Source: Caryophanales bacterium UBA4856 (GTDB lineage Bacteria > Bacillota_I > Bacilli_A > RFN20 > CAG-288). From it: DNA of 13,687 nucleotides. A model generated the notes under the pieces. It was given only the letters and a program-made list of their open reading frames with translations. It did not search any database and had not been told where the DNA came from. Position 1 is the stretch's first letter. Each line of letters opens with the position of its first letter. Made by a program: the position numbers and the translations under genes. The stretch lies in the NCBI GenBank assembly GCA_002399765.1, contig DHEG01000011.1, positions 57,558 through 71,244 on the forward strand, read 5' to 3'. Positions 1 to 13,687 of the stretch are shown here, in pieces.

Positions 1-1693
1 CACTTGACTCACCGCCCTCACTGTCGTGATGGAAACTGTGATGACTGGTGTAGGAATGACCATTTGGACCGTGGCCGAAATGAGTAGATGGCATGTAACG
101 GGGATCGTCGTTGTGCTCATGGTTGTTGGAATGCCAATCACGATGGAAGTCTTTGTGATAACTGTCTTTGTGGTAGCTGTCCTTATGGTAACCATGGGCG
201 TTGTCCCCATCCTGGTCGTTATCCCTGTCGGAATGGTAGCGAGAGGAGGATGAATGGCCGTAATGGGAATGATCGTCATCGGATCGATGGCCGTAGCTTG
301 AATGCCCATAGTTGTTTGGATGTCCATAACTCGAATGACCAAAGCTTGAATGGCCATAACGCTTATGGCTGTCGCCTCTATCGAAGTGGCGGTGATCCTC
401 TCCGTCCCCGGCCTCTTCCTGCTTTTCCTTTTGGGCCTTGGTCTTAAGGTGCTCTTGCCAAAGGTGCTTCTTGGAGGGGTCGTTCTTCCAGCGGCTGTCG
501 CGTTTCGATTCGGCTTCTTCTTTTGGGTTGTCCTTAAAGGCGAAGGGTTGGGGTTTCTTATGGGCCTTCAAGACCACGGGCACGCCATTCTTCAAGGCAT
601 TGGCAATGCTGGTGGCGATGGTAGTGGCCATCTTGGCTGCATCGGAATCCACCTTCTTGATGTCTTCGATGTTCTGGGGTTGGGGATCGTCGCGCCCGAT
701 GTTTGACACCGTCCGCCTGATGATGGTCTCGACATCCCCGAACCGGATCTTCCCGTCCTTGAATTGCTGCAAGGCGATCTCGTCGGCGGCATTGGCCGCG
801 ATTAGGGCCCTTTCGCCCTGGGTCTTGTACATGAAGGCCAGATAGCCAAACAGCGGATGGCGATCCTTGTCATAGTCGGTCAAATAGTCATTGCCTTTGT
901 CGGTCAAGGCGAGGTCTTTGGCAGTCCATGCGTCCAACAGCCCAGGTTCACCGGCCTTTTGGGCAATCTCGAAGCCCTTGTCGGTCTTAAGCGCGGCCAG
1001 GTCCTTTGGATCGGCTGAGCTCTTGGCACTGAAATAGTCGAAGGGCTTGTTGGACAAGGAGGAGACGGTAACCAAACCGAACAGGGCCTTTAGGCCCGTG
1101 GCTTCATCGACGAAGTCCTTGATGGTCGTGCTCTTCTCGATGTAGGGACCATAGGCGGTGCCGAACAGATCCTTGATGGCCACGGCCTTGAAGGGATCGC
1201 TGTTGTCTATCAAGGACAGGGAACCTGCCTGGAGGTTGTCCGATCCGGCCAAGGGCAACAGGGCCTTGAGATCCTCGTCCAAGGGATAATACTTGCCCTG
1301 GAGCTTCTTGGCTTCGGAACCGGCCAAGGCCAAGAACTCCCGGCTGTAGGAATAGACCTCAAGGCCTTTGCTCAGGGCGGTTAGGATCAATGGGATGGAG
1401 GGGAAACCGGTAAGGGCGATCAAGACCGCGTCGGCCTTGGTGGTGAAGAGCAGATCGGCAAAGCCCTTGTCTCCCGCGAACAGCTTGTCGTCCGATCCGG
1501 CCGGCAGGGCATATTGCTCGTCCTTGACCCAGACGTTTTTGACATCGAGTGACTCGCTCTCATCCAAAAGGTCCTGGGTGGCCTTCAGATCGCCCAGGGC
1601 CACCACGGCATAATCCCCATTGGTCTTCAATGCTTCCAGGGCTTTTTGGCCCCAAGGGGTCGAAACACCCAAAACGACGATAGACTTTGACAT
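1..1693 (-). CDS. Degenerate Dxr-like protein with a His-rich C-terminal tail (partial, runs off left edge)
   Basis: The frame from ATG at 1693 is open for 564 codons to the window edge with no stop, so the C-terminus is missing. A strong site (AAGGAGG, 7 nt before ATG) supports the start. Residues 1-330 resemble DXP reductoisomerase of the MEP isoprenoid pathway. A Rossmann-type start (IVVLGVSTPWG, 5-15) replaces GSTGSIG. YSREFLALAG (116-125) stands where ANKE..V.AG is expected. YPLDEDLKALL follows at 136-146. The best match is the C-terminal ANAADEIALQQFKDGKIRF (300-318), close to the family's NAANE-A--AF--G-I-F. Active-site motifs are damaged: the metal-binding DSE reads DED, and the H-P-N-W loop and the N-K---E helix are not recognisable. 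Residues about 345-430 are charged, and 432-564 carry 27 histidines. Position after cdsA is the normal dxr site. I infer a non-catalytic or repurposed Dxr relative; the function is unknown. Confidence 0.72.
   Translation of the reverse strand, partial: MSKSIVVLGVSTPWGQKALEALKTNGDYAVVALGDLKATQDLLDESESLDVKNVWVKDEQYALPAGSDDKLFAGDKGFADLLFTTKADAVLIALTGFPSIPLILTALSKGLEVYSYSREFLALAGSEAKKLQGKYYPLDEDLKALLPLAGSDNLQAGSLSLIDNSDPFKAVAIKDLFGTAYGPYIEKSTTIKDFVDEATGLKALFGLVTVSSLSNKPFDYFSAKSSADPKDLAALKTDKGFEIAQKAGEPGLLDAWTAKDLALTDKGNDYLTDYDKDRHPLFGYLAFMYKTQGERALIAANAADEIALQQFKDGKIRFGDVETIIRRTVSNIGRDDPQPQNIEDIKKVDSDAAKMATTIATSIANALKNGVPVVLKAHKKPQPFAFKDNPKEEAESKRDSRWKNDPSKKHLWQEHLKTKAQKEKQEEAGDGEDHRHFDRGDSHKRYGHSSFGHSSYGHPNNYGHSSYGHRSDDDHSHYGHSSSSRYHSDRDNDQDGDNAHGYHKDSYHKDSYHKDFHRDWHSNNHEHNDDPRYMPSTHFGHGPNGHSYTSHHSFHHDSEGGESS
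149..193 (-). repeat. Three tandem 15-bp units encoding S/F-YHKD repeats
   Basis: Plus-strand units start at 149, 164 and 179 (gtctttgtgataact, gtctttgtggtagct, gtccttatggtaacc). They lie in frame in the Dxr-like gene and encode repeated YHKDS on the minus strand. Third-position differences between units indicate selection for the amino acids, or age, rather than a very recent expansion. Confidence 0.8.
287..358 (-). repeat. Imperfect coding repeats of GHSSYG type in the His-rich tail
   Basis: In the Dxr-like frame, residues 446-469 read as units GHSSF, GHSSY, GHPNNY, GHSSY, GH. The 15-18 nt units diverge mainly at synonymous positions. Similar HSHYGHSSSS sequence continues toward position 250. 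Such His/Gly/Ser/Tyr repeats are typical of metal-binding or adhesive low-complexity tails; the role here is inferred. Confidence 0.7.
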
Positions 1694-1775
1694 CTTTATG
1701 CCTCCTTAGGGCATCCATTGATTTTCGCTTTACGCAAATCTTCGGTGAGAGGGATTATAAGCCATATTGGTTAGG
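1694..1775 (-). promoter_or_regulatory. cdsA to Dxr-like intergenic region with a TATAAT box
   Basis: This 82-nt gap holds a perfect -10 hexamer TATAAT (complement of 1754-1759) and a strong AAGGAGG ribosome binding site before the ATG at 1693. No good -35 is visible 16-18 nt upstream. The -10 lies inside CCAATATGGCTTATAATC, nearly repeated upstream of dnaD. The Dxr-like gene may therefore have its own promoter besides read-through from cdsA. I saw no terminator here. Confidence 0.4.
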
Positions 1776-2771
1776 TTAGCTTAAGAAGTCCCAGTTGTTG
1801 AACGTTATTATCACTATTATGGCCGTGGCGATGGAAGTCACCAGGGAAGAGTCGAACCGATCAAGCACGCCGCCATGGCCGGGGAAGATCCTGCCCCAGT
1901 CCTTGGCGCCGTATTTGCGCTTCACCGCCGAGAACATGAACCCACCAAGGTTGTCCAACAGGGGGAAGAGGAAGGCGAATAGGGTCACCCAGCCCCAGGC
2001 ATAAGGATCGGTCCTGACGTCAAACACGCCCGGAAGCAGGGGATAGCCGAGCCAATAGTCCAGGACCAAGACGTATGAGTAGGAGAAGACTATGGACAAT
2101 ATGGCGCCCCCGAAGAACCCTTCCCAGGTCTTGTGGGGCGAGATGCGGGGATTCATCGGATGCTTGCCGATGGTGATGCCGGTCAGATAGGCACCGGTAT
2201 CGGAAGTCCAATCCCCGATCAGGACGAACCACAAGAGGATGCAGGAAGACGGATCCCAGGCGAAGTCCAGCCATTTGGCATAGGCGGTCCCATTGTCCAG
2301 GAAGGGCGGGAAGAAGCGAAGGAACAGGATCGAATAGAAGCCCAGGCCCACCAAGATGAACATGGTGAAGAGATAGAAGATGTCCTCGACCCTGAAGTTG
2401 GCCCACCAAAAGGAGGCTATGAAAAGTAGACCCAAGTAGACCATGATGGCGATGACCGAAACGCTGAAATCGCCAAGGTAGAAGAAGTTGCCTTGCAGCA
2501 GACTGGTCCGGATGTCGGAGTTCTTGATGAATGGCCAATAGACCAAGGCGAACATGGAGAGGTAGGTGATGACCCATATCACGGGGCTATAGCGCTTGGT
2601 GCCCGGAAGGGTCAATATCTCATAGGTGGCTATCGCCACGAAAAGGAAAGAGAGGCCCAGCATGAACCAGCCACCGATGGTGGCGGCCGGGATGCCGATG
2701 GCCATCAACACGATGGCGGTGACGGTCCTGACCCAGAGGGTATGTTCCGTGTTCTCCGAAAGCTTCTTCAT
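1776..2771 (-). CDS. cdsA: Phosphatidate cytidylyltransferase (CDP-diglyceride synthase)
   Basis: CdsA is the membrane enzyme that makes CDP-diacylglycerol from phosphatidic acid and CTP, the entry point to phospholipid synthesis. The 331-residue product is mostly hydrophobic with several membrane segments. It contains SDTGAYLTG and NPRISPHKTWEGFFGG, both characteristic of the family. It ends with the full CDP-diglyceride synthase signature at 281-307 (S-x-x-K-R-x4-K-D-W-G-R-I-F-P-G-H-G-G-x-x-D-R-x-D), including the metal-binding Asp residues. It is somewhat longer than the roughly 260-280 residues common in bacteria; part of the excess is a segment near NGTAYAKWLDFAWD between membrane helices. 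The ATG overlaps the uppS stop as ATGA, so translation is probably coupled to uppS. Confidence 0.96.
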   Translation of the reverse strand: MKKLSENTEHTLWVRTVTAIVLMAIGIPAATIGGWFMLGLSFLFVAIATYEILTLPGTKRYSPVIWVITYLSMFALVYWPFIKNSDIRTSLLQGNFFYLGDFSVSVIAIMVYLGLLFIASFWWANFRVEDIFYLFTMFILVGLGFYSILFLRFFPPFLDNGTAYAKWLDFAWDPSSCILLWFVLIGDWTSDTGAYLTGITIGKHPMNPRISPHKTWEGFFGGAILSIVFSYSYVLVLDYWLGYPLLPGVFDVRTDPYAWGWVTLFAFLFPLLDNLGGFMFSAVKRKYGAKDWGRIFPGHGGVLDRFDSSLVTSIATAIIVIITFNNWDFLS

Positions 2772-3499
2772 TGCTTGATGGCTCCAAAGCGGCGGTCGCG
2801 GGCATAGTACTCATCGACTGCTTCCTTTAGGTCTTCCTTGCCGAAGGCCGGCCAATAGGTCTTGGGAAACTCCATCTCGGCATAGGCGACCTGATACAGA
2901 TAACAGTTGGAGATCCTTAGTTCCCCGGAGGTCCTTACCAACAGGTCGACCGGGGGCAAGCCAGCCGTCCAAAGTAGATCGGCATAGCTGTCGGTGTTGA
3001 GGTCCTTCAGCTGTGCCTTGCCTTCCTTATAGAGGAGGGCGAACTTCTTGGTGGCCTGGACGATGTCCTGCCTGCCGCCGTAATTGAACAGGACGTTGAA
3101 GTTATAGACCTTCAAATCCTTGGTCTGCTCCATGGCGTCTTCGATGGTGCGCAAGATGTCTTGGGGTATCCTTGGATCGTCCAATTCGCCAAGGACCCTC
3201 ACCCGACAGCCGATGGATTTGAAATAGTCGATGTTGGAAGCGAAGAACTGCTTCAGCAACCTGAAAAGGGTAGCGATCTCGCCCTGGGGCCTGTTCCAAT
3301 TCTCCGTGGAGAAGCAAAACAGGGAGACATAGGGGATGCCATAGCCCTTGAAGCAGGTATCGGCTATTTCCTTGATCCTCTTGACTCCGGCGGCGTGTCC
3401 GGCGGTACGCGGCAAAAGGCGCTGTTTGGCCCAGCGCCCGTTGCCATCCATGATGAAGAGGATGTGGTTCAGTTTCTTCTTGCCAGCAGTGTCCGTCAA
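2768..3499 (-). CDS. uppS: Isoprenyl transferase (undecaprenyl diphosphate synthase)
   Basis: A cis-prenyltransferase that extends farnesyl diphosphate with isopentenyl diphosphate to give the C55 lipid carrier of cell-envelope glycan synthesis. The 243-residue product has the key motifs: MDGNGRWAKQR (17-27, catalytic Asp18), RTAGHAAG with His35, SLFCFSTENW-RP, NYGGRQDIV, and near the C-terminus DLLVRTSGELRISN, leading to the conserved AYAEMEF. Length is normal. The start codon is TTG at 3499-3497, overlapping the frr stop as TTGA. That overlap and the family-typical distance to MDGNGRWA favour this start. It also overlaps cdsA downstream by 4 nt. Making a polyprenyl carrier implies an isoprenoid precursor supply, notable beside the degenerate Dxr. 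Confidence 0.96.
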   Translation of the reverse strand: MTDTAGKKKLNHILFIMDGNGRWAKQRLLPRTAGHAAGVKRIKEIADTCFKGYGIPYVSLFCFSTENWNRPQGEIATLFRLLKQFFASNIDYFKSIGCRVRVLGELDDPRIPQDILRTIEDAMEQTKDLKVYNFNVLFNYGGRQDIVQATKKFALLYKEGKAQLKDLNTDSYADLLWTAGLPPVDLLVRTSGELRISNCYLYQVAYAEMEFPKTYWPAFGKEDLKEAVDEYYARDRRFGAIKQ

Positions 3500-4047
3500 A
3501 GTGTCAAAAGCTCTTTCTCTTTGACCTTGAACAGGTCATCGATTTCCTTTATGTGGGCATCATGGAGCGCCTGGATTCCATCGTCGATGCGCTTCTCCAG
3601 ATCCTCGGAGAACTCCTCCGACTTCTTGACCTTGGTGATGTAGTCCTTGCGGACGTTCCTTATGGTGACCTTGTTGTCATCGCAATAGGACTTGGCGGTC
3701 TTGACCAGTTCCTGGCGCCTCTCGCCGGAAAGGGGCGGGAAGTTAAGCCTTATGACGTTGCCCTGCACATTGGGATTTACACCCAGATCGGAGGTCCCGA
3801 TGGCAGCGACGATGGGCTTCAAGGCGCCGGGATCGAAGACCTTGAGCAAAAGGGAAGTCCCGTTTTGGACCGATATGGAAGCCAAGTTCTTTATGGGAGT
3901 CGGCTCGCCATAGTAATCGGCCTTTATCCTATCCAAGACGTTGGGGCTGACCGCTCCGGCCCTGAGGGTGGAAAGGGAGCCCTTGAGTTTGGCGATCGAA
4001 TCGTCCATTTCGGCCTTTGCCTCGTTCAATATCTCGTTCTCGTCCAT
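3496..4047 (-). CDS. frr: Ribosome recycling factor
   Basis: RRF works with EF-G to split the post-termination ribosome. The 183-residue product matches the usual 185. Typical sequence includes the N-terminal helix with KLKGSLSTLRAGAVSPNVLDRI, then YYGEPTPIKNLASISV, LNFPPLSGERRQELVKTAK and the C-terminal helices with VRKDYITKVKKSE. A GAGGAG ribosome binding site lies 11 nt before the ATG. A 90-nt gap separates it from pyrH. The stop is shared with the TTG start of uppS. This is the normal location of frr after pyrH in Bacillota. Confidence 0.97.
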   Translation of the reverse strand: MDENEILNEAKAEMDDSIAKLKGSLSTLRAGAVSPNVLDRIKADYYGEPTPIKNLASISVQNGTSLLLKVFDPGALKPIVAAIGTSDLGVNPNVQGNVIRLNFPPLSGERRQELVKTAKSYCDDNKVTIRNVRKDYITKVKKSEEFSEDLEKRIDDGIQALHDAHIKEIDDLFKVKEKELLTL

Positions 4048-5827: not shown

Positions 5828-6952
5828 CTATTTGGTTACCTCTTTCTTTTCTGCGGGGGCAGCGGGAACTACGTTGGTCTTTGCGGGTTTGATGTCAGTG
5901 GGCTGATTGGAAGTGGCAGCCTGCCTGTTTGTGCCATTGCCGTTGTTATTGTGGAACCTGTTGTTTCCGAACTTCTTGCCGAAACGCGAATTGGCATTGG
6001 CTTTCTTGCGCTTCTTGCCCTTGCGCTTGGCGGCGAAGATATCTTCCCTGATCTTGGAGTGGATGATTCTCAAATCGTCCACGCTGAACTGAGCGGGAAG
6101 GATGTCCTTCATGGTCTCCTTATCGCTGGCATCGGTCTTGTAGGCATACTCCACCTCGCCACCCTTGCCGGCGACCACGGCATCGGCCAAGATGCCGACT
6201 ATCAACTTCACGGACTCGGGTCCGTCCACGTTCACGGGGATCGGATAGTCCACGACGGTGGGATCGCAGTTGGTATCCACCAAGCCGAAGGAAGGGATGT
6301 GAAGGAGCTTGGCCTCATTGACGGCGTTGTGCTCGTACTTGGTATCGATGATGACAATGGCATTGGGGACCTTGCGCATCTCCTTGATGCCACCCAGCAA
6401 CATGTTGAGACGATCGTGCTGCTTGTTGCGGGCGATGGCATCCTTCTTGGAAAGCTTCTCCAAGAGGCCTTCGTCGGCCTCATCCTCAAGGTTCTTCAAT
6501 AGATGGATACGGTGGGAAATGGTGCGGAAGTTGGTGAGGGTTCCGCCCAACCACCTGTTGGAGACATAGAAGGAGCCAGACCTGGTAGCCTCGGCCACGA
6601 TGGTGTCCTTGGCGATGGGCTTGGTGCCGACGAACAGAACCTTGCCACCCTGCTCGACAATCTTCTTCAAGGCCAGATAAGCGGCCTGGAGGAGAACGGC
6701 GGTCTTATTTAGATCGATAATGTGCAGATTGTTTCTCTTGGTGTAGATGAAGGGCTTCATCGCCGGGTTCCAACGCCTGGCCTGATGTCCGAAGTGAGCG
6801 CCCACGGCCAGCAATTCCTTGGGGGATACGACGGGGTCGGAATCGGAATGCACGGTCTGAGCCATTACGTCAGTAGTAGTCGCAGTAGTCTTGTTGGCTA
6901 CAGGAGCGGTGGCGGTTGCCACTGGAGCCTGAGTCTTTATTTCATCACTCAT
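5828..6952 (-). CDS. rpsB: Small ribosomal subunit protein uS2 with long N- and C-terminal extensions
   Basis: S2 binds the 30S subunit near S1 and the mRNA exit. The core is clear: ELLAVGAHFGHQARRWNPAMKPFIYTKRN (from 46), GGKVLFVGTKP and SNRWLGGTLTNFRTI. The ATG at 6952 is chosen because AAAGAGG lies 10 nt upstream and the core then begins near residue 41. The frame stays open further upstream, with another in-frame ATG at 7036. The 374-residue product far exceeds the usual 230-260. It has an Ala/Thr-rich N-terminal extension of about 40 residues. Its tail of about 65 residues (310-374) starts KGKKRKK, is rich in Asn, Gly and Arg in the middle, and ends Pro/Ala/Lys-rich. Such tails are uncommon in S2 and are probably disordered and RNA-binding; that role is inferred. 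Confidence 0.95.
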   Translation of the reverse strand: MSDEIKTQAPVATATAPVANKTTATTTDVMAQTVHSDSDPVVSPKELLAVGAHFGHQARRWNPAMKPFIYTKRNNLHIIDLNKTAVLLQAAYLALKKIVEQGGKVLFVGTKPIAKDTIVAEATRSGSFYVSNRWLGGTLTNFRTISHRIHLLKNLEDEADEGLLEKLSKKDAIARNKQHDRLNMLLGGIKEMRKVPNAIVIIDTKYEHNAVNEAKLLHIPSFGLVDTNCDPTVVDYPIPVNVDGPESVKLIVGILADAVVAGKGGEVEYAYKTDASDKETMKDILPAQFSVDDLRIIHSKIREDIFAAKRKGKKRKKANANSRFGKKFGNNRFHNNNGNGTNRQAATSNQPTDIKPAKTNVVPAAPAEKKEVTK

Positions 6953-6969
6953 GCTAGCAATACCTCTTT

Positions 6970-9190: not shown

Positions 9191-10045
9191 TCATTGCATG
9201 TCCAGCGGCTCCTTGCTTGAGGGAGCCGGGAATTCCCGATCGATCCTTGTCCAGTCAGAAGGCGCGATGTCGATTGCGAAAGCCTTGGCATTCTCCAAGG
9301 TATGCTTTGGGTTGGAAGATTTCGGTATGGCAATGACGTCGGGATTTCTAAGGACGAAGGCCAAGAGCAACTGAGCTGGTGTCAGGCCATATTTCCCGGC
9401 GACCTGCTTCACGACGGGGTCGGACATCAACCCTTCTCTAAGGCTTCCCCCGATTGCCAGGGGGCAATAGGCCATGAAGGCGACGTGGTGTTTCTCTTGC
9501 CACGGCAATAGTGAGTATTCGACCCCCCTGGAGCCAAGGTGGTATAGGCATTGGTTGACGGCGCACCTATCCCCGTCCTTCACCTGCCAGAGACGTCCCA
9601 TGTCAGGGGTATCGAAGTTTGACACTCCCCAGTTTTTGATCAGGCCCTTGGCCTTGGCCTTTTCCATGAGGGAGACGGTCTCCGCCAAGGGGACGGGTCC
9701 GATCCAATGGAGGAGGTAGAGGTCTAAATAAGAAGTGTCGAGAAGGGATAGGGATCTTTCGAGGCTTTGCCAGAAGTGGTCCTTGCCGGCGTTGGTGGGG
9801 ATGACCTTGTCGACCAAAAAAAGCCCATGGCGGTCACGGCCCTTTATGGCTTGGCCGACCAACCTTTCCGAATTGCCATAGCCGTATAGCTCCGCGGTGT
9901 CTATCAACGTTATGCCGCTATCGAGACCGGCTTTGAGCGATTCCAGTTCCTGGTCGTGGAGCGCCTTGCTATCGCCCATCTTCCAGGTCCCTAGCCCCAG
10001 CCTTGGCATCCTCGTCCCGTCCTTGAGTGTCAAATACCTTTCCAT
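9191..10045 (-). CDS. Aldo/keto reductase
   Basis: An NAD(P)H-dependent carbonyl reductase of the AKR barrel family; the substrate is unknown. ATG at 10045 is chosen because AAAGGAGC precedes it and the protein then begins MERYLTLKDGTRMPRLGLGTWKMG, the family's standard start. The frame stays open 66 nt further upstream. The 284-residue product has the catalytic tetrad: Asp49 and Tyr54 in LIDTAELYG, Lys80 in LVDKVIP, and His113 in LYLLHWIG. The later WGVSNFD and AIPKSSNPKHTLENAKAF (cofactor phosphate binding) are also standard. The start overlaps the DUF3137-like stop by one base (TGATG), so translation is coupled. It is the last gene of the dnaD-nth operon and converges directly on recU. Confidence 0.93.
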   Translation of the reverse strand: MERYLTLKDGTRMPRLGLGTWKMGDSKALHDQELESLKAGLDSGITLIDTAELYGYGNSERLVGQAIKGRDRHGLFLVDKVIPTNAGKDHFWQSLERSLSLLDTSYLDLYLLHWIGPVPLAETVSLMEKAKAKGLIKNWGVSNFDTPDMGRLWQVKDGDRCAVNQCLYHLGSRGVEYSLLPWQEKHHVAFMAYCPLAIGGSLREGLMSDPVVKQVAGKYGLTPAQLLLAFVLRNPDVIAIPKSSNPKHTLENAKAFAIDIAPSDWTRIDREFPAPSSKEPLDMQ

Positions 10046-11154
10046 CAACGGCTCCTTTCCAAATCGCTTGCGAAGATCTCGCAGAAATCCAGGATGAACA
10101 GCGTCTGACACAGGATGTTCTCGATCGGGTCCCTGTTTTTGGCATAGAGATCCAAAGAATTCTTGTCCCTGTAGACAAACAGGTACCTGTCATGGAAGCA
10201 GGCGGTGAGCTGGCCTTTCTGGGCCAGGGCGTTGAGGCGGTCTATTATCACGGGGTTTACGGCCTGCAAGGCCTGAAGGGGACTGTCGGCAAAGACCTTG
10301 AATTCTTTGTTGAAGGCCAGGCTTTCCGTCTCGACGCGGCTCAGCCCTTCGACCTTGGCTTCCTTGTCGTTGGTTATCAACACGATGCCGGAATTAGGCG
10401 TCTTCAAAGGCAAGAGTAGGATCGAGCCATGGAAGAGGGGTGCGGGTTGGCCCAGGGCCATCACCGTCTCGTTGGTGGCTACGAAGGGTATGCCCCTTTG
10501 GATTCCCTGGATGCAGTCGGAACCGGCATAGACCATTTGGTCTTTGGACTTGAAGGGATAGCCCAAGTCCATCACTTCCTTCTTGATGTATCGGGCCCGC
10601 GAATAGGAGAAGTCCTTGTCCTGGCCGAATTCGGCATTCAGGATTGCGCCTATAAGCTCTGGCGAAGGGGAATCGAAAAGGCCACCCAGCTTCCTTAGGG
10701 CCATCACGAAGACATAGAGGAAGAGAAACTCGGGTATCAAGCCCAAGCCGAATATTATCGAAGTCATGGCTCCGGCCTTGGCATCGACGCCGGACATGCT
10801 AAGGCCGGACAGGAGAATCACCACGAAGATGACGATGAAGAACACCAATGGCACTATCATCCCCGTGAAGCCCATCTTGATTTGTCGCTTGTGCTTCATA
10901 AGTTGGTTCTTTACGTCTTTGTCGGCCTTTACGGTCAAAAGCAGGCTGTTCAGTTTTGGATCGGTCTTCAGCCTTTCCTTGAACAGCTTCCAGTCGTTGC
11001 TTTCGTTGCGCTTGGTTTGGCCCTTCCGCCTCTTGGTCTTCACCACTGCCTTGACCAAGAAGATCAGGCAGACGATGAAAAGGAGCAGGGGCAATACCGC
11101 GCTCAATGACCAGGCGAGGTGGAATTCACTCGAGTATTGATAGTCGCCGCTCAT
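10045..11154 (-). CDS. DUF3137-like membrane protein
   Basis: ATG at 11154 is chosen because it overlaps the nth stop as ATGA; a longer in-frame start at 11217 would lie inside nth. The 369-residue product has three predicted membrane segments: about 16-36 (followed by KTKRRKG, positive inside), 96-117 and 128-152. A large soluble C-terminal region follows. In it, VETESLAFNKEFKVFADSP followed by ALQAVNPVIIDRLNAL resembles the E-x-x-x-FN--F-V-------A----P---------- pattern of the DUF3137 family, which is often membrane-tethered. The function of that family is unknown to me. It lies between nth and the aldo/keto reductase with overlaps on both sides, so it is co-translated, but nothing ties it to DNA repair. 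Confidence 0.75.
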   Translation of the reverse strand: MSGDYQYSSEFHLAWSLSAVLPLLLFIVCLIFLVKAVVKTKRRKGQTKRNESNDWKLFKERLKTDPKLNSLLLTVKADKDVKNQLMKHKRQIKMGFTGMIVPLVFFIVIFVVILLSGLSMSGVDAKAGAMTSIIFGLGLIPEFLFLYVFVMALRKLGGLFDSPSPELIGAILNAEFGQDKDFSYSRARYIKKEVMDLGYPFKSKDQMVYAGSDCIQGIQRGIPFVATNETVMALGQPAPLFHGSILLLPLKTPNSGIVLITNDKEAKVEGLSRVETESLAFNKEFKVFADSPLQALQAVNPVIIDRLNALAQKGQLTACFHDRYLFVYRDKNSLDLYAKNRDPIENILCQTLFILDFCEIFASDLERSR

Positions 11155-11789
11155 CCTTTTATGCTCCTTCCTTCGATCACGTCCCAGCAATGTTTCGGCG
11201 TCGTCGAGGGATGACATACCTTCCGCCCGAACATTATGAGCTGACGATGGGTATTCATGAGGTCACCCAGGCCCCCGAAGCATTTCTCCAAGGTCCTCTC
11301 GATCCTTTCGGGGGAAGTGCCCTTGGCTACGAAGCCGAGCTTTTGGGCTACCACGGCGACATGGGTATCGACCGGGATATAGGGAAAGTCATAGCGTTCG
11401 CCAAGATATACCCCGGCGGTCTTGTAGCCGACGCCCGGCAGGGCCATCAAGGCCTTGCGGTCCTTGGGCAGTTGGCCCTTGAAGTCAGTGAGGACCATCT
11501 GGGCCGCCTTGACCAAATGCCTGGCCTTGGTCGGGGCCAGGCCGACTGGCCTTATTATGGCTTCCACTTCCCTTTCGTCGGCCTTGGCCAGGTCTTTTAG
11601 GGTCTGGTATCTGGCAAAGAGGATGGGCGTGACCTTGTTTACGGCGCCATCGGTGGTCTGGGCCGAAAGCATGATGCAGAATAGAAGCTGATATGGCTTG
11701 CTCCTGTCGTAATGGAGATAGGTCGCTATGAGGCCGTATTCCCGGTCCAGGAAGGCCTTGACCTTTATGGCTTTGTCTCTCTTGGTCAT
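11151..11789 (-). CDS. nth: Endonuclease III-like DNA glycosylase lacking the iron-sulfur cluster motif
   Basis: Endonuclease III removes oxidised pyrimidines and nicks the resulting abasic site in base-excision repair. The 212-residue product matches the family in length and core: QLLFCIMLSAQTTD (34-47), the helix-hairpin-helix LPGVGYKTAG (117-126) with catalytic Lys123, and IPVDTHVAVVAQKLG with catalytic Asp141. The C-terminus normally carries C-x6-C-x2-C-x5-C for a 4Fe-4S cluster. Here only Cys192 and Cys201 remain, eight residues apart, in VCHPSTTPKHCWDV, so a cluster is unlikely. Catalysis may persist, as cluster-free relatives are known in this superfamily. It starts 3 nt after dnaD, the classic Bacillota pairing, and overlaps the next gene by 4 nt. 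Confidence 0.93.
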   Translation of the reverse strand: MTKRDKAIKVKAFLDREYGLIATYLHYDRSKPYQLLFCIMLSAQTTDGAVNKVTPILFARYQTLKDLAKADEREVEAIIRPVGLAPTKARHLVKAAQMVLTDFKGQLPKDRKALMALPGVGYKTAGVYLGERYDFPYIPVDTHVAVVAQKLGFVAKGTSPERIERTLEKCFGGLGDLMNTHRQLIMFGRKVCHPSTTPKHCWDVIEGRSIKG

Positions 11790-12508: not shown

Positions 12509-13672
12509 CTATTTCGCCAAGAGGGTGGCGTTGATGTCGAACAGGCCCTTCTTGCCCATGTACTCGGTGTGGATTTCCTTGATGGCTCGCTGGAACAGGG
12601 ACTGGGTCAGGGCATCGTCGTTGTGACGGGGATCGCTATCCTCGAAGCTCAGGCGGAAGTCCTTGTTTATCAAGACCTTTCCCTCTTTCTTGAACCTGGC
12701 CATCTTCTCGTCTACCAAGCCCTTCGAACCGGAGACGAAGTCCTTGAAGTCTTCCTCTTCCTTCGCAGTCCCGAACACCACCATCTCATCCAGGAAGGAC
12801 TGGTAGACGTCATAGGCCTTTTTGCCGCTGTTTTGCTCATGGATGGCACTGGAGAGCTTGTTGACCAAGTAGGCGAACTCCAGGGAATCCTCGCAGTAGA
12901 AGAACAGGGGCCGATAGCCAAAGAAGTCCGGCTCTATATGGGGCTTTGGAACCTGATAGCGGCCATCGAGAAGGTCCACGACCAGGGATTCCAAGGTCAT
13001 GTACTTGTCGATGAAGTCGACTGCCAGGCCCTTCTTTTGGGAGTCTTCGTAATGGGCCATGTAGAAGGAGGGGCTGACCTGGTATTCGCGTTCCTTCACC
13101 TGGAAGAAGGGGTCGATGGCATAATACATGCCATCGGGTTTCTCGACCCAGTTGCCCCACTCGTATTCGAGGATGTGGCGGAACTTGTCCCGGGCATCGT
13201 CGGAGACCGGATAGAGCATGTGCTTGGTGGCCAAGTCCAGGATTGCCGTATACATCTTCTGGGCCAGGTCATCGGCGGAATCCTTGTTGAATTGGAGTAT
13301 CTGCAGTCCCCTTATGTCGGAGGGTATCTTGTAGTCGCCTTCATAGCAGAGGAAGACGCGGTCGTATCCCAACGACTTTATGGCATAGCCTACCTCGAAC
13401 ATAACGTTGGGATTGGTCACGTAGTTTTCGGGCTTGAGGACCGTTCCGAGGTTCGATACATCGCCCACCAACATGAACGACTGGTCTATCAATTGGGTGA
13501 TCACGTTCAGAAGCAGCTTGGAGCCGGTCTGGTTGTTGGAAGCCTCCCGGTAATCGACGAAAAGGCCGTTCTTGGCCAAAAGGTGGATGGCCTTCTTCAG
13601 GCCTTTCCGTATGATGTCCGACTTCTCCGGTTGCCAAGTCTGGCTGGAGAAGAATATCAATGGTTTCTCCAT
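12509..13672 (-). CDS. TIR-like nucleotide-binding-fold protein with a novel C-terminal domain
   Basis: ATG at 13672 is preferred because GGGGAGG lies just upstream; the in-frame ATG at the window edge would place that site inside the gene. The 387-residue product has an N-terminal alpha/beta domain (about 1-150). Its pattern is that of TIR-like/deoxyribosyltransferase-like families: IFFSSQTWQPEKSDIIRKGL, VDYREASNN, a D-V-S-N-L turn (71-75), then TNPNVMFEVGYAIKSLG (86-102) with Glu93 at the usual catalytic position, VFLCYEG and DIRGLQILQF (119-128). Many such domains cleave NAD or bind nucleotides in phage defence or stress response; that function is inferred here. Residues 150-387 match nothing I recognise. 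They are rich in aromatic and acidic residues and have no membrane segments or coiled coil. The gene is upstream of dnaD with a 71-nt gap; what precedes it is outside the window. Confidence 0.7.
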   Translation of the reverse strand: MEKPLIFFSSQTWQPEKSDIIRKGLKKAIHLLAKNGLFVDYREASNNQTGSKLLLNVITQLIDQSFMLVGDVSNLGTVLKPENYVTNPNVMFEVGYAIKSLGYDRVFLCYEGDYKIPSDIRGLQILQFNKDSADDLAQKMYTAILDLATKHMLYPVSDDARDKFRHILEYEWGNWVEKPDGMYYAIDPFFQVKEREYQVSPSFYMAHYEDSQKKGLAVDFIDKYMTLESLVVDLLDGRYQVPKPHIEPDFFGYRPLFFYCEDSLEFAYLVNKLSSAIHEQNSGKKAYDVYQSFLDEMVVFGTAKEEEDFKDFVSGSKGLVDEKMARFKKEGKVLINKDFRLSFEDSDPRHNDDALTQSLFQRAIKEIHTEYMGKKGLFDINATLLAK

Positions 13673-13687
13673 GTTAATCCTCCCCAT

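Follow-up and report, generated by a model that had tools for sequence, protein, structure and literature searches.

A probable Dxr-derived pseudoenzyme with a new C-terminal helical segment at the dxr locus of a Caryophanales bacterium

We analyzed a 13,687-nucleotide stretch of the genome of Caryophanales bacterium UBA4856 (contig DHEG01000011.1, positions 57,558 to 71,244; here called the window), in which the gene directly after cdsA descends from dxr and probably encodes a pseudoenzyme. Dxr, the enzyme of the MEP (methylerythritol phosphate) pathway of isoprenoid synthesis that converts DXP to MEP, is regarded as essential and as a drug target (i.e., of fosmidomycin). The genes cdsA, uppS, frr, pyrH, tsf, and rpsB are the customary bacterial surroundings of dxr. 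In the window, cdsA and uppS were identified upstream of the gene by family searches, and genes that we take, by resemblance, to be frr, pyrH, tsf, and rpsB lie farther upstream of uppS (Table 1). A first-pass annotation made from the letters alone had placed the gene at the normal dxr locus and described its reading as intact over 564 codons; both statements stand. The frame is open from the ATG to the window edge, with no stop codon versus 11 to 30 in each of the other five frames of the same stretch, and a search of a protein collection returned the full-length protein of 660 residues (cluster P0002; 4 member sequences on 5 contigs).

Table 1. Features of the gene after cdsA and of its upstream neighbors (window positions; residue numbers are those of the protein)
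Feature	Positions	Strand	Basis or remark
Putative pseudoenzyme gene derived from dxr, codons 1-564 of 660	2..1693	(-)	Runs off window edge
Tail of low complexity (His/Ser/Asp/Gly/Tyr), residues 428-564 in the window, 428-660 in the whole protein	2..412	(-)	Composition
Predicted helix-break-helix, residues 390-429, past the end of normal Dxr	407..526	(-)	Model
Conserved motif SRWKNDPSKKHLWQEH, residues 400-415, 13/16 identical in G399	449..496	(-)	Alignment
C-terminal helical domain of Dxr with NAADE region retained, residues 270-353	635..886	(-)	Pfam
Former catalytic/connecting region, residues 126-269, most metal/substrate residues replaced, predicted folded	887..1318	(-)	
N-terminal Rossmann-type Dxr domain, residues 5-125, GSTGSIG loop changed to GVSTPWG	1319..1681	(-)	Pfam, alignment
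Gap after cdsA, lengthened to 82 bp, with TATAAT at 1754-1759, AAGGAGG at 1701-1707	1694..1775	(-)	
cdsA, upstream neighbor, normal dxr context	1776..2771	(-)	Family search
uppS, kept in the window, missing at the matching place in G399	2768..3499	(-)	Family search

The window protein exceeded the Pfam cutoffs for the N-terminal Dxr domain PF02670 (E = 7.9e-6; 27.0 bits; cutoff, 21.7) and the C-terminal domain PF13288 (E = 1.5e-10; 41.8 bits; cutoff, 27), and an AlphaFold model predicts a Dxr fold over residues 1 to 365, with the core folded to about residue 368. The earlier claim of a retained Dxr fold signature with a Rossmann-like start is thereby supported. The catalytic domain PF08436 gave no match in the window protein at E ≤ 1, while an ordinary Dxr (i.e., P0003) scores 128.2 bits, and the score against the NCBIfam equivalog TIGR00243 (56.2 bits) lies below the cutoff of 315.7. 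Across 53 Dxrs, to which the protein is 17 to 25% identical, 67 columns are conserved in 88% or more of the sequences. The protein retains 19 of these columns, whereas the 53 Dxrs retain 59 to 67; the columns that it keeps look mostly structural.

An orthologue is present in the draft genome G399, which is the nearest in pyrH among 24 genomes compared (61% identity; 43 to 52% in the others). The order on its contig is pyrH, frr, cdsA, the orthologue, an rseP-like gene, and a polC-like gene, with uppS absent between frr and cdsA. The orthologue (P0243; 575 residues) is more diverged from Dxr than the window protein: it has no Pfam match above the cutoff, neither to PF02670 nor to PF13288, and its direct PDB matches are weak (eight DXR sequences; best E = 0.78). 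Profile comparison nevertheless relates it to Dxr (E = 9.6e-10). It matches the window protein over 434 residues (E = 3e-19), and still does so when the motif and tail are left out (E = 1.2e-8; 55.5 bits; of 100 shuffles, 92 gave a match, with a maximum of 26.9 bits). A matching locus, the SRWKNDP motif described below, and a long low-complexity tail are all present in this second lineage.

Most of the metal- and substrate-binding residues of Dxr have been replaced in the window protein. DED (D139, E140, and D141) stands in place of DSE, and no HPNW/HPTW loop remains, as the first-pass annotation had stated. For the E. coli residue numbers and the roles of the metal and catalytic sites, we take those commonly given for Dxr. 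When the proteins are added to 59 aligned Dxrs, D, D, and G of the window protein and D, D, and D of the G399 protein fall at the metal ligands D150, E152, and E231, in a region where the alignment is uncertain. S186, H209, W212, S222, N227, and K228 correspond to N, K, a gap, E, K, and A in the window protein and to T, A, a gap, A, D, and A in the G399 protein, and S254 and H257 are P and L in the window protein. Neither protein has an intact NADPH loop G-x-T-G-S-I-G (the window protein reads GVSTPWG and that of G399 GLDEPGG, with a common P), and the A-N-K-E motif is incomplete (of NKE, E alone is retained). The earlier hand alignment, in which A-T---K replaced the N-K---E helix, was mistaken: A198-T199 is the AT kept from the D-S-A-T motif, and N, K, and E are replaced by K, A, and G. 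The proposal that all catalytic residues are present once properly aligned is rejected by these alignments. Judged from its sequence, the window protein very probably does not work as a DXR.

The protein might instead remain catalytic with a changed chemistry, as a Rossmann-type oxidoreductase or isomerase with a new substrate and a rebuilt active site. The fold retained in the prediction would suit such an enzyme, as would D150 (kept in both proteins), the change of E152 to D in both and of E231 to D in G399, and the NKE glutamate kept in both. However, two alignments of the G399 protein conflict around D150-E152, E231 is G in the window protein, and the glycine-rich loop is broken in both. 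K228, N227, S222, S186, and H209 are also lost in both, mostly with unlike replacements, and since the replacements differ at most of the lost catalytic sites, a new common active site is unlikely. We regard a changed chemistry as quite improbable.

Past the core, the model of residues 1 to 440 predicts a flexible linker followed by the helix-break-helix (block pLDDT [predicted local distance difference test] values of 76, 90, 91, and 83 over residues 391 to 430). Here the window and G399 proteins, otherwise about 21 to 23% identical, both carry SRWKNDP[SA]KK[HE]LW[QN]EH; the next best segment has 7 of 16 residues identical, and when the identity pattern was shuffled 20,000 times, 4 shuffles reached the observed 13 of 16. 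With the SRWKNDP motif relaxed, a search of the collected proteins and of six-frame translations of the window and collected loci found it in the window gene and the G399 gene only. A PDB search with the RWKNDP segment gave a single chance match (E = 6.5).

The tail that follows is strongly unlike in the two proteins. In the window protein, histidine makes up 19% of the 233 tail residues (428 to 660), with YGHSS- and YHKDS-like repeats and a net charge of -13, so that the more than 200 residues of charged linker and histidine-rich tail described earlier are borne out in composition. The G399 tail contains 8% His and 20% Arg and has a net charge of +19. Because of this difference, conservation among the new parts belongs to the RWKNDP segment rather than to histidine richness, and a conserved specific function is less likely to reside in the tail. 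A histidine-rich metal store or metallochaperone, which the histidine content and repeats of the window tail would suit, is highly improbable given the composition of the orthologous tail. Furthermore, the window genes submitted to family searches included no metal protein above the cutoff, and a MarR-type gene in the window matches metal regulators weakly, below the cutoff. The metal-binding role first suggested for the tail is therefore unsupported in any conserved form, and conserved metal binding by the tail is rejected on the G399 composition. We take the low-complexity tail to be disordered, and it probably evolves by expansion, given its short repeats and a third-position G+C content of 0.52 over residues 441 to 564.

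Relatives carry an ordinary dxr at the same place. PF13288 was found, with one match each, in 253 of 279 genomes of the order that holds the nearest genomes; G399 is among the 26 without it, 20 of which were listed for further tests. The profile built from the two proteins matches 231 of the 279 genomes; among the matches listed, G399 alone runs through the motif (by construction), and the others end by profile position 372 of 471. Of 20 stretches fetched, one (L054) lacked cdsA and was dropped. In the remaining 19, dxr lies directly after cdsA in every case; 18 copies are whole, and that of L036 is in two frames, probably through an assembly fault. All 18 whole copies keep the catalytic motifs and are followed by an rseP-like gene, with a polC-like gene in 11 of the 18 loci (on reading of translations).

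A CdsA tree of 28 rows places the window and G399 as sisters (support, 100/97). Next to them, at a fork whose support (94/91) falls short of the strict mark, stand 13 rows, namely L036 and 12 in which an ordinary dxr is whole. Since the tree joins these two beside rows with ordinary dxr, the loss of catalytic residues and the gain of new parts arose, most simply, once, on the branch common to the window organism and G399. Descent in place, rather than horizontal acquisition, is supported by the genome position and by the CdsA tree (a Dxr tree would suffer from too long a branch). Among the best 120 of 7,481 proteins, the window uppS product is 93% identical to one cluster and 70 to 72% identical to the other 119. 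The latter (P0005-P0123) appear to form a gut clade, as suggested by one record name, and some of these proteins occur on hundreds of contigs.

In G399, genome searches did not find dxr (PF13288), ispG, ispH, or HMG-CoA reductase, the last of which was present in 2 of 43 genomes. A whole-genome search for uppS gave no candidate there either. Among 23 comparators (G398, G400-G420, and G187; near kinship taken from the listing order), 22 have ispG; of the 13 searched for ispH, 11 have it. Since ispG, ispH, and HMG-CoA reductase were not found in G399, that genome has probably lost the MEP pathway. The stretch from frr to cdsA without uppS is one assembled contig, although uppS could lie elsewhere. 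Other points also weigh against a loss. G399 is a draft, and ispH was not found in G398 and G406, which do carry ispG, so the absences may be draft-genome gaps. In G420 and G403, a distance of about 7 kb separates ispG from ispH, and one lost contig could remove both. The uppS search was empty also for G404, despite its ispG and PF13288, and, at E ≤ 1e-75, for G398 and G409.

MraY (PF00953) was found in 1 of 23 genomes tested (i.e., G398) and not in G399; the lineage is probably wall-less, and the window organism would belong to it. In the order of G187, MraY was thus found in 1 of 23 genomes, yet ispG and ispH occur in the proportions given above. Wall loss is not general in the orders RFN20 and RF39, because the passages of PMC7301438 on four RFN20 and RF39 genomes give genes for peptidoglycan units as well as uppS and the MEP genes (apart from ispD in one genome). 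No dxr, ispG, ispH, or HMG-CoA reductase was found in G559-G562. G610 and G611 instead carry HMG-CoA reductase.

The gene is also set apart from cdsA. From the cdsA stop to the dxr start, the 19 relatives have -4 to +10 bp (-4 in 11 of the 19), versus the 82 bp of the window; starts nearest the Dxr match were chosen by rule, and that of L050 was set by hand. In G399, the gap measures 152 bp when counted to an ATG that has AAGGAG before it (62 bp if an upstream TTG is the start). The gaps of both genomes contain a perfect TATAAT, and a terminator-like hairpin follows cdsA in G399. Together, the long gaps, the two TATAAT sequences, and the hairpin point to possible transcription of the gene apart from cdsA in both genomes. 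The strong ribosome binding site reported earlier is present (AAGGAGG, seven bases before the ATG). The TATAAT box reported with it exists as a sequence, but no -35 element passed the scan beside it in either gap, and a promoter scan of positions 1600 to 3700 gave 0 promoter-like sites.

If the MEP pathway was lost and dxr came under weak selection, the gene could be a slowly decaying relic that is open by chance or through coupling to its neighbors. Its divergence is very fast (uppS, with its 70 to 72% identity to the nearest large clade, offers the comparison), the G399 protein is further eroded, and the pathway itself looks lost in G399. Nonetheless, when one relative's dxr was mutated uniformly to 17 to 52% mean protein identity, 0 of 300 frames stayed open at each of four divergence levels, with 12 to 18 stops on average. 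Codon third positions also remain coding-like: their G+C content is 0.75 to 0.78 over residues 1 to 365 (14 neighboring genes, 0.66 to 0.83; the gap over all bases, 0.43), and it is 0.83 over the first 372 codons of the G399 gene (its cdsA, 0.90). Moreover, a new 16-residue motif is common to two otherwise dissimilar proteins, and the gene is less, not more, coupled to cdsA than in the relatives. A relic is hence unlikely, and the simulation, together with the orthologue and its common motif, agrees with the first-pass argument against a simple decaying pseudogene.

The explanation that we favor, and consider probable, is that the window protein is a Dxr-derived pseudoenzyme (i.e., a folded scaffold that holds a helical peptide and a disordered tail) retained for a noncatalytic role, which selection would maintain. 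As the first-pass annotation had proposed, a former MEP pathway enzyme has probably been recruited to another role. On the branch to the window organism and G399, dxr would have lost DXR catalysis at its own locus, a longer leader would have set it apart from cdsA, and the gene would have gained the helical segment SRWKNDPxKKxLWxEH and the long tail. Normal Dxr is a dimer. A Dxr-like core that is probably dimeric would serve as the scaffold and display two hairpins and two tails, and the hairpin would most likely bind a protein or nucleic acid partner. A broader account, to which we give an even chance, is that dxr became such a scaffold during MEP loss in a wall-less lineage, that the window (which keeps uppS) and G399 (without uppS at its place, and with dxr, ispG, and ispH not found) represent two successive stages, and that the RWKNDP hairpin and tail define a new family.

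Several points weigh against the pseudoenzyme explanation. It has two members only, one from a draft genome, and their tails differ as described. The motif statistics are post hoc, and charged linkers match readily. The input alignment of the AlphaFold model consisted of Dxrs, and the prediction therefore leans toward the Dxr fold. The D, D, D aligned at the metal ligands of the G399 protein makes some metal binding possible there. A search with residues 1 to 400 scored 7,995 candidates and, apart from the protein's own cluster, found a single normal Dxr (P0003). The uppS gut clade was not reached in the genomes searched or by a separate scan, leaving its dxr locus unseen. Scans of genome contigs with the window protein and of viral contigs with the two-protein alignment returned 39 and 71 stretches, respectively, none of them a relative. 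In a protein search, the best 120 of 648 matches all carried PF08436; true Dxrs filled these places, where eroded forms could not show.

Pseudoenzymes keep an enzyme fold and lose catalytic residues. The window protein resembles them in both respects and in its proposed binding role. It resembles type I DXR/IspC (TIGR00243; PF02670, PF08436, and PF13288) in its predicted fold, its N- and C-terminal domains, and its position after cdsA (in G399, also before rseP- and polC-like genes), but lacks a recognizable catalytic domain, has D/D/G at the metal triad and a broken NADPH loop, and carries the extra helical segment and long tail. Type II DXR (DRL) is an alternative DXR-like family with DXR activity that accompanies or replaces the ordinary enzyme in some bacteria, according to the description in PMC3847144. 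The window protein differs in that it is derived from type I and appears inactive. Our literature searches on histidine-rich paralogues or pseudoenzyme relatives of Dxr found none among the papers listed.

Homologues of Dxr are identified through its domains. Here two of the three are recognized although the reaction is very probably absent, and anyone predicting the pathway solely from PF02670 and PF13288 would be misled. If our explanation is correct, the gene of an essential enzyme can be freed as the need for undecaprenol drops in wall-less bacteria, two stages of this release have been caught, and the part kept for the new role (i.e., the fold and the new peptide, not the active site) becomes testable.

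Elsewhere in the window, rpsB (5828-6955, minus strand) has a long Asn/Lys/Arg-rich C-terminal extension, which is another low-complexity tail in this genome. A DUF3137 protein (PF11335; E = 3.6e-12) is encoded at 10045-11217 on the minus strand, in a frame that overlaps its neighbors. Beside dnaD and nth, a 392-residue protein (12509-13687, minus strand) carries a CAP12/Pycsar-type TIR domain (PF10137; E = 2.1e-9). Among PADLOC models, it matches PDC-S50 (E = 3.9e-11) and those for TIR effectors (E = 1.7e-9 to 2.1e-8), and it is a possible antiphage effector.
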